Origin: Phycisphaerae bacterium
Lineage (GTDB): Bacteria; Planctomycetota; Phycisphaerae; SM23-33
Direction: 5' to 3'
DNA length: 40,783 nucleotides
NCBI GenBank assembly: GCA_003551645.1
Contig: PUND01000033.1
Location: 1-40,783 of the forward strand
The notes below the pieces were generated by a model. That model was not told the DNA's origin. It did not search any database and saw only the letters and a program-made list of their open reading frames with translations. The position numbers were made by a program, and so were the translations under genes. Shown piece after piece: positions 4,084-37,924 of the stretch (position 1 is the stretch's first letter; every line of letters begins with the position of its first letter).

Positions 4084-4147
4084 TGTTTTCGTGCTTCGTG
4101 TTTTGTATTTCGTGCTTCCGCCGATCGCCAGTGGCGAGTTGCGAATC
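4084..4147 (+). repeat. Degenerate heptamer tract downstream of the hypA-like gene
   Basis: 4084..4118: TGTTTTC GTGCTTC GTGTTTT GTATTTC GTGCTTC; 4127..4147: GCCAGTG GCGAGTT GCGAATC. Confidence 0.85.
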
Positions 4148-4180
4148 AGCCGCAGGTCGAGCCACATTATGTCGGCCCGC

Positions 4181-4477
4181 CTATTCCTCGCCCTCGAATC
4201 GCGTTATGAGCAGCTCCCAGCCGCTGGCGGTCTGGGGCTGCTCCGCGCCCGGCGGTGTATATTGCTCGCCGGGGTCCACGATGGTGATATCCACCTCGGC
4301 ACCCTGGAAGTTCGTGCCCTCGAATGCGTGCTCGAAGCTGTGGGCCAGGAAGTCGGCCGAGACGCCGTGCAACATTCCGACGACCATCTCGATGCGGCGA
4401 ACGCGCGAATAGCCGTGCGTATCGGCGAGTTGCCGCAACTGCGGCCAAAGCTCCTTGGCAAGCCCGTGCTCATGCAT
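4181..4477 (-). CDS. HypA-like hydrogenase/Ni metallochaperone lacking the zinc-binding cysteine loop
   Basis: MHEHGLAKELWPQLRQLADTHGYSRVRRIEMVVGMLHGVSADFLAHSFEHAFEGTNFQGAEVDITIVDPGEQYTPPGAEQPQTASGWELLITRFEGEE: HypA N-terminus (MHE) and C-terminal G-x-E-L-x-I strand, no Cys anywhere. Confidence 0.75.
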   Translation of the reverse strand: MHEHGLAKELWPQLRQLADTHGYSRVRRIEMVVGMLHGVSADFLAHSFEHAFEGTNFQGAEVDITIVDPGEQYTPPGAEQPQTASGWELLITRFEGEE

Positions 4478-4638
4478 TGAAAACCTCGCTGCTCCTTAGT
4501 GAACCGGAAACGTGTAAGCGGGAACCATGGAACCTGGAACAAGTAACCGGGCTTATGCCGCCTGTGCCTATAGTCGGCTATGCGCCAGGCACTCAAGGCC
4601 AGACGCACAAACGGCCCTATGCACACGGCGTGGTCCGG

Positions 4639-4673
4639 CGAGTCACGATTCGCCACTCGCGACTCGCGATTCT
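4639..4673 (+). repeat. Degenerate heptamer tract upstream of the hypA-like gene
   Basis: CGAGTCA CGATTCG CCACTCG CGACTCG CGATTCT. Confidence 0.85.
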
Positions 4674-34442: not shown

Positions 34443-34462
34443 AGCCCCGAAGGGGCGACAGA
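34443..34462 (+). repeat. RAYT-associated element, direct copy 2 (AGCCCCGAAGGGGCGACAGA)
   Basis: Exact reverse complement of 34914..34933; together they bracket the transposase ORF. Confidence 0.9.
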
Positions 34463-34464
34463 AC

Positions 34465-34911
34465 TTGTCCTATACGAACCTGATATACCACGTGGTCTTT
34501 TCCACCAAGCAGCGCCGCCCTATCTTGACAACCTACGTCCGCGAGCGAGTATTTGAGTACCTCGGCGGCATCGTCCGCAAGCTCGACGCAAAGCTCTTGC
34601 GTGCCGGCGGCGCGGACGACCACGTGCATCTGGCCGTCTCCGGCCCGGCGACGCTCGGCGTCGCAGAGCTGGTCCGTAAGACCAAGGCCAACACGTCCCG
34701 CTGGGTGCATCAGAAGCTCCCGGAGCAGCGGGACTTCGCGTGGCAGGACGGGTACGCGGCGTTCTCGGTTTCACTGTCGGGGCTTGATCGTGTGCTGGAT
34801 TACATCTCGAACCAGCAGGAACATCATCTTCGTGTGATGTTTGAGGAAGAGCTAAAGGCCCTGCTGGACAAGCACGGTATCGAATACGATGACCGATATG
34901 TATTCTCATAG
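34465..34911 (+). mobile_element. IS200/REP-associated tyrosine transposase (Y1_Tnp/RAYT-like)
   Basis: MSYTNLIYHVVFSTKQRRPILTTYVRERVFEYLGGIVRKLDAKLLRAGGADDHVHLAVSGPATLG...FAWQDGYAAFSVSLSGLDRVLDYISNQQEHHLRVMFEEELKALLDKHGIEYDDRYVF; HVH (HUH) motif and YI-x-Q-x-HH. Confidence 0.92.
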
Positions 34912-34913
34912 TC

Positions 34914-34933
34914 TCTGTCGCCCCTTCGGGGCT
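34914..34933 (-). repeat. RAYT-associated element, inverted copy (TCTGTCGCCCCTTCGGGGCT)
   Basis: 20/20 inverted match to 34443..34462. Confidence 0.9.
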
Positions 34934-35055: not shown

Positions 35056-35556
35056 ATGACCTGTCAGAACACATACCTCGTGCTGGGCATAGACCCTGGC
35101 TTGCATGTAACCGGCTACGCCGCGGTGAATTTCGCCGGTGCCGAGCCGGCAATAGCCGAGGCGGGCACCGTCCGCACCGACGATAAGGCCCCGCTTGCCG
35201 ACCGCATCACACAACTGCATGCCGACCTCTCCGAACTGCTGGCGGAGCTTCGCCCCGACCTGGTGGCCGTCGAGGAGCTTTACGCCCACTACAAGCATCC
35301 CCGGACGGCGATACTGATGGCGCACGCCAGGGGCATAGTGCTGCTGGCGGCCCGACAGGCGGACATCGGGATAAGGCACTTCGCCGCAACGCACATCAAG
35401 AAATCGCTTACCGGCAACGGCCACGCGTCCAAGAGGCAGATCCAGCGGGCGGTGCAGTCGGTCTGCTCACTTGCGGAGCTTCCCGAACCACCGGACGTGG
35501 CCGATGCGCTGGCCATCGCCCTCTGCGCCGGCAGGCGGGCGACCGGACCGGTCTGA
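35056..35556 (+). CDS. ruvC: Crossover junction endodeoxyribonuclease RuvC
   Basis: YLVLGIDPGLHVTGYAAV...LVAVEELYAHYKHPRTAILMAHARGIVLLAA...PEPPDVADALAIALCAG. Confidence 0.95.
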   Translation: MTCQNTYLVLGIDPGLHVTGYAAVNFAGAEPAIAEAGTVRTDDKAPLADRITQLHADLSELLAELRPDLVAVEELYAHYKHPRTAILMAHARGIVLLAARQADIGIRHFAATHIKKSLTGNGHASKRQIQRAVQSVCSLAELPEPPDVADALAIALCAGRRATGPV

Positions 35557-35617
35557 ACGCGACGCCTTCAATGAACGAGACTGTTGCCGGACGGGAAATG
35601 TTTGTATCCTTCAGGCC

Positions 35618-36241
35618 ATGATCGCACGGATTGCAGGCCAACTGGAGCACGCCGCGGACGGAGCCGCCCTGATAGACGTCGGCGGCGGGCTGTGCTATGA
35701 GGTGCTCATTCCCGCGTGCGACATCGAGCGGCTGGAGCGCCGGGTCAACTCCGAGGTGGTCCTGCACACGATACATTACTTCGAGGGCGACCCGTCCCGA
35801 GGCATGCAGACGCCCCGGCTGATCGGCTTCTGCACCGAATCCGACCGGGACTTCTTCCGTGTGTTCACCACCGTAAAGGGCGTCGGCGTCCGCAAGGCGC
35901 TGAGGGCGCTGGTCCGACCGGTCGCCGAGGTGGCCGCGGCCATCAGGGACAAGGATTCGGCCTTTCTGGTGGCGCTGCCGGAGATCGGCAAGCGCACGGC
36001 CGAGCAGATTGTCGCCGAGTTGAACGACCGCGTTGACGACTTCGCAGGCGGCGCCGCACCGACAGTCGAGGCCGAGCTTAGCGAACCGGCCCAGGAGGCA
36101 GTCGCCGTGCTCATCCAGCTCGGCGAACGACGCGCCGACGCGACGGTGCTTATCGAACGGGTAACCGCCGTAGCGCCGGAACTCGACACCCCCGAGCAGA
36201 TACTCCAGCAGGCGTACCGGCTGAAGGCCGGAGGGAAGTGA
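35618..36241 (+). CDS. ruvA: Holliday junction branch migration protein RuvA
   Basis: MIARIAGQLEHAADGAALIDVGGGLCYEVLIPACDIERL...FCTESDRDFFRVFTTVKGVGVRKALRAL...LPEIGKRTAEQIVAELND. Confidence 0.94.
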   Translation: MIARIAGQLEHAADGAALIDVGGGLCYEVLIPACDIERLERRVNSEVVLHTIHYFEGDPSRGMQTPRLIGFCTESDRDFFRVFTTVKGVGVRKALRALVRPVAEVAAAIRDKDSAFLVALPEIGKRTAEQIVAELNDRVDDFAGGAAPTVEAELSEPAQEAVAVLIQLGERRADATVLIERVTAVAPELDTPEQILQQAYRLKAGGK

Positions 36242-36243
36242 AA

Positions 36244-36261
36244 GTAGCCAGGAGCCAGGAG
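36244..36261 (+). repeat. Left arm of 18-nt exact inverted repeat flanking the four-helix-bundle gene
   Basis: GTAGCCAGGAGCCAGGAG; exact reverse complement of 36851..36868. Confidence 0.9.
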
Positions 36262-36301
36262 CACGGCTGCCTGCAAGAGACGTGAACAGAAGGTTCATGT
36301 A

Positions 36302-36742
36302 GTGCGAATCCGGACTACCAGCTTGACCGAAAGGTACGGACACGACAGCAGCCCTTTCGGATACGAGGACCTGGAAGTCTATCAGGCCGCCAGAGCGCTG
36401 CGCCGGCGCATCTACCGACTTGTACGCATGCTACCCGATGACGAGCGTTTTGCACTCGCCCAGCAAATGAAGCGGGCAGCGGTGTCCATAACCGCTAACC
36501 TAGCTGAGGGATACGGACGGCACAACTGGCAGGAGTCGTTGCAGTTCTGCCGACAGGCGCGCGGCTCGCTCCTGGAGCTTGCGGAGCATGTACAGGTCTG
36601 TATTGACGAGGGCTACGCGAAGCCCGAACATCTGGAAGCATTGAGAGAACAAGACGTCATGGACGTGTTGCGGCTGCTTAACGGATATATCAACTATCTT
36701 CAGAAGCGCAAGGCCTCCGAGACGAAGCGGAGCCCAAGATGA
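36302..36742 (+). CDS. Four-helix-bundle protein (S23 / 23S rRNA-intervening-sequence protein family, Avd-related fold)
   Basis: FGYEDLEVYQAARALRRRIYRLVRMLPDDERFALAQQMKRAAVSITANLAEGYGRHNWQESLQFCRQARGSLLELAEHVQVCIDEGYA...; S23 family pattern LxxQxxRAAxSIxxNLAEGxGR. GTG start. Confidence 0.9.
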   Translation: MRIRTTSLTERYGHDSSPFGYEDLEVYQAARALRRRIYRLVRMLPDDERFALAQQMKRAAVSITANLAEGYGRHNWQESLQFCRQARGSLLELAEHVQVCIDEGYAKPEHLEALREQDVMDVLRLLNGYINYLQKRKASETKRSPR

Positions 36743-36848
36743 AACTGGCCGGGCCAATGCCCCAACACACGGCCGCAGTTTACGAGCCGAATCGGTTAGA
36801 ATACCCCCGGTTCCCGGCTAGTGCCTACCAATTTCCCGGCCTGCCGCA

Positions 36849-36886
36849 GACTCCTGGCTCCTGGCTACTGGCTACTGACTACTAAC
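36849..36886 (+). repeat. Degenerate heptamer tract, right arm of the inverted repeat
   Basis: GACTCCT GGCTCCT GGCTACT GGCTACT GACTACT AAC. Confidence 0.85.
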
Positions 36887-36889
36887 ACG

Positions 36890-37924
36890 ATGTCCCGCGA
36901 AAAAATAATCTCCCAATCCAGCACCGGCGCCGAGGATGAGCAGTACAACGCGGCCCTTCGCCCGCGGTCGCTCGACGAATGCATCGGCATGACCGAGCTT
37001 ATCGAGAAGCTGAGCATCTCGGTAACCGCCGCCCGCGATCGGGACGAGCCGATGGAGCACGTCATGCTTCACGGCCCGCCCGGACTCGGCAAGACCACGC
37101 TGGCCTACGTCATCGCCCACGAAATGGGCAGCGCCATCAAGGTCAGCTCCGGTCCGGCACTGACACGGCCGAGCGACCTCATCGGCATACTGACCAACCT
37201 GGAGCGAGGCGACGTGCTGTTCATCGACGAAATCCACCGGCTTCCGGCGTCGGTCGAGGAATACATCTATCCGGCGATGGAGGAGTTCAAGGTGGACTTC
37301 GTGGTCGATTCCGGCATGCACAGCCGGACAATCAACCTTCCGCTGAAGCCCTTCACGCTCATCGGCGCCACCACGCGAGCCGGGCTGCTAAGCCCGCCGC
37401 TGAGGACGCGGTTCGGCATCGCACACCACCTGGAGTTCTGGCCGGTGGAGGATTTGCTTGCCCGGGCCAGGATGACCGCGAAGATGCTGGAGGTGCCCTA
37501 CGACGAACCGGCGCTGGAAATGCTCGCCGCCCGCGCCCGCGGGACGCCGCGCATCGCCAACCGCCTGCTCCGACGCTGCCGGGATTACGCCCAGGTCAAG
37601 GCGGCCGGGCGGCTGACCATCGAGACCGTTGAGGCGGCCCTTCGGCTGGAGGGCATCGACCCGCTTGGACTGGACGAGCTTGACCGCCGCTTCCTGAGGA
37701 CCATCATCGGCGTCTATAGGGGCGGTCCGGTGGGTATAGAGGCCGTCGCGGCCACACTCGGCGAGGAGACAGACACACTGGTGGATGTGGTCGAGCCGTT
37801 CCTGCTCCAGGCGGGGCTGCTGGCGCGCACGCGCCGAGGCCGGCTGGCCACGACGCAGGCCTACGAGCACCTCGGCGAACAGCCGCCCGCCGACGGCGAC
37901 GCGGGGCTTTTCAATAACACCTGA
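36890..37924 (+). CDS. ruvB: Holliday junction branch migration DNA helicase RuvB
   Basis: LRPRSLDECIGMTELIEKLSISVTAARDRDEPMEHVMLHGPPGLGKTTLAYVIAHEMG...FIDEIHRLPASVEEYIYPAMEEF...LIGATTRAGLLSPPLRTRFGI. Confidence 0.97.
   Translation: MSREKIISQSSTGAEDEQYNAALRPRSLDECIGMTELIEKLSISVTAARDRDEPMEHVMLHGPPGLGKTTLAYVIAHEMGSAIKVSSGPALTRPSDLIGILTNLERGDVLFIDEIHRLPASVEEYIYPAMEEFKVDFVVDSGMHSRTINLPLKPFTLIGATTRAGLLSPPLRTRFGIAHHLEFWPVEDLLARARMTAKMLEVPYDEPALEMLAARARGTPRIANRLLRRCRDYAQVKAAGRLTIETVEAALRLEGIDPLGLDELDRRFLRTIIGVYRGGPVGIEAVAATLGEETDTLVDVVEPFLLQAGLLARTRRGRLATTQAYEHLGEQPPADGDAGLFNNT

Follow-up and report, generated by a model that had tools for sequence, protein, structure and literature searches.

To our knowledge, the S23 or four-helix-bundle genes that are common in bacteria have no known function, and we know of no accepted origin for the tandem heptamer arrays of bacterial genomes. 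The 23S rRNA gene of Coxiella contains an intervening sequence (IVS) of 428 nt; RNase III cuts its 28-bp terminal stem, and an S23 open reading frame lies within it (PMC4990558). Tandem GACAGAT heptamers lie 5' of this reading frame in numbers that vary among strains, and the authors think that this S23 protein is not produced in vivo (PMC4990558). S23-encoding IVS have already been called selfish elements.

Among longer simple repeats, heptamer arrays form the commonest class in many bacterial genomes, and arrays of TAACTGA have been described in Beggiatoaceae, Cyanobacteria and Bacteroidetes (PMC4679880). In Xanthomonas, GGGAATC arrays form 70-75 convergent pairs (PMC4692102). The arrays of Xanthomonas, Nostoc and Beggiatoaceae were reported without a mechanism (PMC4692102, PMC4679880); MacGregor weighed a repeat-binding protein as a possible mobile element. 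S23 or four-helix genes are not mentioned in the main text of either paper. We found no paper linking heptamer arrays to S23 genes except in rRNA; few subscription journals and no preprints were covered, and a prior description is not excluded.

Structure of the unit between ruvA and ruvB

The locus lies in a window of 40,783 nucleotides from a Phycisphaerae bacterium, by which we mean the whole stretch of DNA that was analysed. Between ruvA (35618-36241, plus strand; HHH_5 and RuvA_N by Pfam, tblastn to relatives) and ruvB (36890-37924, plus strand; ATG at 36890, RuvB_N E 1.2e-67) we found a 640-nt unit made of one S23 gene between two inverted heptamer arrays. The neighbouring genes are RuvC, RuvA and RuvB by Pfam, which confirms the placement given in a preliminary description of this DNA. 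The S23 gene (36302-36742, plus strand) has a GTG start, although its exact start codon is uncertain, and encodes 146 amino acids that match PF05635 (E 2e-28) and TIGR02436 (E 1.9e-26) in profile searches. It is the only gene found inside the unit, as first described, and Pfam searches detected no transposase there, including no PF01797.

The 5' arm (36243-36261, plus strand; AGTAGCCAGGAGCCAGGAG) comprises about 2.7 heptamers (AGTAGCC, AGGAGCC and AGGAG) of a type common with the clade relatives L078 and L082. It forms an exact inverted repeat with 36851-36869: the two arms are 19 nt long, 100% complementary and 589 nt apart. The preliminary description had reported an exact repeat of 18 nt; the repeat is present, its length is 19 nt, and the 18-nt arms fall inside it. 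The distances given for those arms, 3 nt from the ruvA stop and 21 nt from the ruvB ATG, agree with a ruvA end at 36241 and a ruvB ATG at 36890. The full 3' arm (36851-36883, plus strand) reads CTCCTGG, CTCCTGG, CTACTGG, CTACTGA and CTACT and ends 6 nt before the ruvB ATG. Exact complementarity to the 5' arm covers the opening 19 nt of this array; further heptamers (GGCTACT, GGCTACT and GACTACT) run on to 36883, and the right arm is thus an array rather than a simple 18-mer. By our own estimate, chance would produce an exact inverted match of 19 nt within about 650 nt roughly 1e-4 times per 40 kb. In a scan of 788 placements across the window, an arm score of at least 16 was reached at only three places, the two other places also being genes bounded by repeats.

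This architecture is close to that of the 23S rRNA IVS of Leptospira and Coxiella, which share with S23 units a size of 400-600 nt, an S23 open reading frame and a terminal inverted repeat forming a stem. The window unit has the S23 gene and the complementary 19-nt arms with a predicted stem, but it lacks the defining location, since it stands between two protein genes and not in 23S rRNA.

Two further repeat-bounded genes of the window may be recorded here. Directly upstream of ruvC, a second single-gene unit, separate from the S23 unit, carries a RAYT-like Y1 transposase gene (34465-34908, PF01797 E 5.2e-28; unit 34443-34933, plus strand) between exact 20-nt inverted REP-like hairpins (AGCCCCGAAGGGGCGACAGA; arms 34443-34462 and 34914-34933). 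The other place is an inverted repeat (4124-4147 and 4647-4670; 4124-4670 overall) of heptameric appearance (GATTCGC, CACTCGC, GACTCGC), which encloses a HypA-like gene (4181-4474, minus strand, PF01155 E 1.1e-9) and no S23 gene. In addition, we counted 73 heptamer tracts of the window type in the genome, a reversed-pattern control giving 11, and most of these tracts are without an S23 gene (for example at C25:4706, C67:17730, C34:138-195, and C149:33464 and 33933).

The ruvA-ruvB junction in relatives

Among 30 ruvB loci of relatives, ruvA was immediately upstream in 26, and only one of these 26 had an S23 gene between the two (L059/L077 of genome G014). The stop-to-start gap was at most 22 nt in 14 of the 26. 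The comparison that the preliminary description had suggested thus shows 25 of 26 relatives without S23 at this junction, and a conserved ruvA-S23-ruvB order, which had been named beforehand as a refuting outcome, was not observed. Two junctions contained arrays without a gene: in L051 (G007), inverted GATTTGC heptamers spanning about 99 nt, and a short solo array in L057 (G008; CCACTGGCTACTGACTACCAGCTACT / GGCTACTGACTACC) whose heptamer type is that of the window right arm. The latter may be a remnant of a window-type insertion or a separate insertion. Unrelated hairpins or longer stretches separated ruvA and ruvB at seven other loci.

The presence of S23 at this position in G014 as well could suggest that the gene is an old member of the ruv operon with a role in Holliday-junction repair. 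Apart from the 25 relatives without S23, the protein tree speaks against this: the window protein groups with L078, L079, L082 and L083 (98/95), the G014 protein (L077) falls outside this clade and has another heptamer type, and no member of the window clade from another genome lies beside ruvA or ruvB. We rejected an ancient ruv operon gene on the tree and the junctions of relatives, and we see almost no room left for it. Because the G014 protein lies outside the window clade and the heptamers differ, the two ruv insertions look independent on present sequence evidence.

Inverted heptamer arms at other S23 genes

The genome (2.83 Mb in 150 contigs) contains four PF05635 genes. Two of the others, L001 and L003, have inverted arms of the same build and of other sequence (TTAGCCA/CTAGCCA in L001, GGTTAAC type in L003). 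The fourth, L004, is a truncated match after a tRNA-Pro gene, with an inverted array entirely upstream of the gene. A single repeat common to all S23 genes of the genome was considered and rejected, the heptamers of L001, L002 and L003 being different.

We then extended the comparison to 40 relatives, 36 of which possess S23 genes. Inverted heptamer arms were detected in 62 of the 78 S23 copies of this genome and its relatives, using a score of at least 15 and an interior below 850 nt as the cut-off. By score alone, 63 of the 78 copies reached 15, against 9 of 90 random control placements at ruvB loci. When the upstream flank was aligned with the reverse-complemented downstream flank in 51 copies, the score between the 5' and 3' arms had a median of 22 within copies and 11 between copies (99% at 22 for the latter). 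The arms consist of degenerate heptamers in tandem, oriented as mirror images; identity was 0.68 at a lag of 7 and 0.19-0.32 at the remaining lags of 2-12, and in 52 of 61 arms the best lag was 7. The 5' arm contained more G than C in 54 copies, with 6 opposite cases, and in 14 of 14 plasmid copies. These results bear out the expectation that other S23 copies would have such inverted flanks, except that there is no common GGCTCCT type and each S23 clade has its own heptamer.

Arms were absent by the cut-off from 16 copies. Three of these (L026, L033 and L084) have visible heptamers with a score too low or a flank too short, and nine belong to a clade with the motif MAFxFEKL/FENL. This clade has no flanking arms, and the flanking-arm plan of S23 units is therefore not universal. 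A tRNA gene lies just upstream in six of its nine loci (L004, L027, L028, L030, L031 and L085), and the order is tRNA gene, copy-specific palindrome, and inverted array entirely upstream of the S23 gene. In L030, the unit is in tandem repeat.

Occupied and empty sites on plasmids

S23 genes were found by tblastn on 33 plasmids, and heptamer arms were present at all 14 plasmid loci examined (the first ten, then four more). Their arm scores ranged from 14.5 to 31.5, against a median of 9 and a 95% value of 13.5 for controls at the same loci. The armed plasmid copies belong to Cyanobacteria, Bacteroidota, Chloroflexota and Spirochaetota, and the same kind of unit is present in at least five bacterial phyla. 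This list is limited to what plasmids and relatives of the window genome could provide; our sample did not include Proteobacteria or most other phyla.

Searches with joined flanks identified eight occupied/empty junctions on cyanobacterial plasmids in addition to ruvA-ruvB. At the first, occupied in Trichormus plasmid C and empty in Nostoc linckia plasmid 2, the flanks are 99.3% and 98.7% identical. The same insertion occurs in Scytonema with a 5' array two heptamers shorter (the difference between L110 and L114), and a truncated remnant of it in Nostoc C052 plasmid E. The second site, between TraM and a hypothetical gene, is occupied in two plasmids, and two others lack the unit. L119 has there a gene-less unit built in the same way, and L125 (Nostoc C057 plasmid H, about 500-850) a gene-less one with TCAAAAT heptamers; the S23 units of other plasmids at this junction have AGGGAAC heptamers. 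The third and fourth sites are nrdB/nrdA (L104 occupied, L122 empty) and cas10/cmr3 (L112 occupied, L123 of PCC 7002 empty). The remaining four are provided by the pairs L109/L129 and L105/L130 and by the reciprocal pair L127/L128. The latter are paralogous operons of a single Nostoc strain that carry different S23 units, each junction being empty in the other operon. As a separate observation, S23 units were located within CRISPR operons of cyanobacterial plasmids three times, twice between cas6 and cas4 and once between cas10 and cmr3 (L108, L111 and L112).

No heptamer arrays were found at the well-aligned empty plasmid sites, and the arrays therefore arrive with the insertion; we accordingly rejected the possibility that they were present beforehand as a target. 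Direct repeats of 5 nt were seen at two plasmid junctions (GTAAT at the first site, TTCTA at L127) and could also reflect microhomology. The other junctions had no direct repeat or a small scar, with flanks 84-97% identical, and a target-site duplication of consistent or fixed length was not established across the plasmid junctions compared.

Comparison of these sites shows that the arrays and the S23 gene are inserted jointly at places that are empty in relatives, and we infer that they form a mobile unit; this rests on the occupied and empty sites and on one S23 clade (L109, L110 and L127; 100/95) whose members share a heptamer and occupy three unrelated sites. Mobility is inferred from such sites, and no movement has been watched.

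Array type follows the protein clade

Similarity between proteins was correlated with similarity between arrays for pairs from different genomes (Mantel rho 0.226; the highest of 1000 permutations reached 0.150). The correlation disappeared with the reverse complement of the arrays (rho 0.005), and the arrays of close-protein pairs were alike on the same strand only (0.51 vs 0.14). Within a copy, the two arms matched each other better than one matched the other arm of the nearest relative in 47 of 62 copies, which suggests that the arms of one copy may evolve in concert.

The preliminary description had offered two views of the gene, a small mobile cassette lacking a transposase of its own, or cargo dispersed by the micro-repeats. 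The second does not hold: heptamer type tracks the protein clade, and arrays and gene arrive jointly at sites empty in relatives, so that S23 is not random cargo. The first is supported, and neither of the outcomes that would have refuted it (conserved gene order with non-repetitive flanks, or no other S23 copies with such flanks) occurred.

A related possibility is that the arrays alone are mobile, as a MITE-like part that depends on some unrelated enzyme, for instance a Y1/RAYT transposase, with S23 as cargo or a resident host gene. REP/RAYT systems do resemble S23 units in having one small gene between inverted repeats and many gene-less repeats in the genome. In the present genome, matches to the heptamer pattern far outnumber S23 genes (73 against 4), gene-less or truncated forms exist (L117, L119 and L125 on plasmids, L051 and L057 between ruvA and ruvB), and a RAYT gene lies about 1.3 kb from the S23 unit. 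However, RAYT systems consist of a Y1 transposase gene and palindromic REP hairpins, whereas S23 units have no PF01797 and carry heptamer arrays instead; the REP hairpins of the nearby RAYT have another sequence and no heptamer plan. Mobility of the arrays alone would also not account for array types that track the S23 clade, nor for purifying selection on an S23 gene whose units occupy unrelated sites. We consider this explanation improbable, without dismissing it.

The S23 protein and its transcript

Estimates of dN/dS ranged from about 0.05 to 0.22, for the pairs where both rates were estimable. Being well below 1, they indicate that the S23 protein is under purifying selection and, on this estimate, has been kept functional while the unit occupies different places. 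The AlphaFold2 model of the window protein (pLDDT 88.5) best matched 2GSC and 2RLD, then 4DWL and 8UB7 at probability 1.00 (Foldseek). 4DWL is the Avd of the Bordetella phage and 8UB7 the ribonucleoprotein of a diversity-generating retroelement (DGR). The Avd profile phrog_3206 also matches the window protein (E 1.7e-6), and fold and profile thus confirm the relationship of S23 to Avd given in the preliminary description. 2GSC is the S23 protein of Xanthomonas campestris, a homopentamer (PMC4990558, citing Lin 2006). PADLOC returned no match that would indicate a defence role, and tblastn gave no match in 50,697 phage records that would point to carriage by phages. We know of no catalytic residue in S23 proteins. 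In the predicted RNA fold, the arms pair as a terminal stem (z -2.64 for the window, -3.27 for L110).

The likeness to Avd raises the possibility of a retroelement, in which the RNA of the unit would be copied by a reverse transcriptase in trans and S23 would act like the Avd of DGRs. The structure and profile matches and the predicted stem of the transcript are compatible with this, as is the orientation of the plasmid copies, which are co-directional with their annotated neighbours except in L104. Nevertheless, S23 units share with DGRs only an Avd-like fold that is nearer to the S23 structures, and they differ in that no reverse transcriptase was found in the unit or in the genome. RVT_1 was not found in the window genome (94% complete) or in several S23-rich relatives, among them G008 (seven S23 genes, 96% complete) and G014 (five S23 genes, 90% complete). 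Across 35500-37500, a repeat search not aimed at template and variable repeats showed no long direct repeats. Dependence on a resident reverse transcriptase is disfavoured by the missing RVT_1 in these genomes, and we regard the retroelement explanation as quite doubtful.

Discussion

Taken as a whole, we think it likely that S23 genes and their inverted arrays constitute a mobile element of fold-back type that recognizes its own arrays, although recognition is inferred in the absence of binding data. The S23 protein, a pentameric four-helix barrel similar to Avd, would be the element's own mobility or maintenance factor. It may recognize its arrays as a stem, whether formed by the transcript or by single-stranded or cruciform DNA; recognition is an inference drawn from the tracking of protein clade by array type. 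The likeness of the arms could be kept by slippage and by copying between arms across the fold-back. Cutting and joining would be left to host or trans-acting enzymes; neither the nuclease or polymerase nor the nature of the intermediate, RNA or DNA, has been identified.

Fold-back transposable elements of eukaryotes, such as Tetris, have long inverted termini made of short tandem repeats in variable number. S23 units likewise have inverted tandem termini of period 7 whose number varies at one site (L110 vs L114), but they are bacterial, their repeat is 7 nt long and they code for S23. Classical insertion sequences and MITEs have a transposase in the autonomous copy, whereas S23 units carry none and have the S23 gene only; the arms of S23 units match within a copy, and between copies only inside one S23 clade. 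Compared with what is described for IVS, S23 units occur in many clades with their own heptamers, at occupied and empty sites, and as plasmid copies in unrelated operons. On our analysis, the S23 IVS of 23S rRNA is probably the same element placed in rRNA, with RNase III excising it from the transcript.

A broader claim would be that S23 units represent a separate class of bacterial transposable elements, namely fold-back elements measuring about 0.4-0.6 kb with a sole protein, a four-helix pentamer without known catalytic site, that selects its own arrays. The units would then be a major source of the heptamer repeats noted for so long in bacteria, and the rRNA IVS would be one special case of them. 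We judge that this could go either way. The arrays of Xanthomonas and Beggiatoaceae resemble S23 arms in being tandem heptamers, mostly intergenic and variable in length, with convergent inverted pairs in Xanthomonas. Their link to S23 is a proposal of the present analysis, and those genomes were not examined.

Two puzzles are raised by these units: how they move without a transposase and without a resident reverse transcriptase, and how the arms of one copy stay alike while diverging from those of every other copy. Genes without known function and arrays without accepted origin are now joined, since they appear to travel as one unit, and this offers one source of the abundant heptamer arrays of bacteria together with a candidate binding protein that can be tested.
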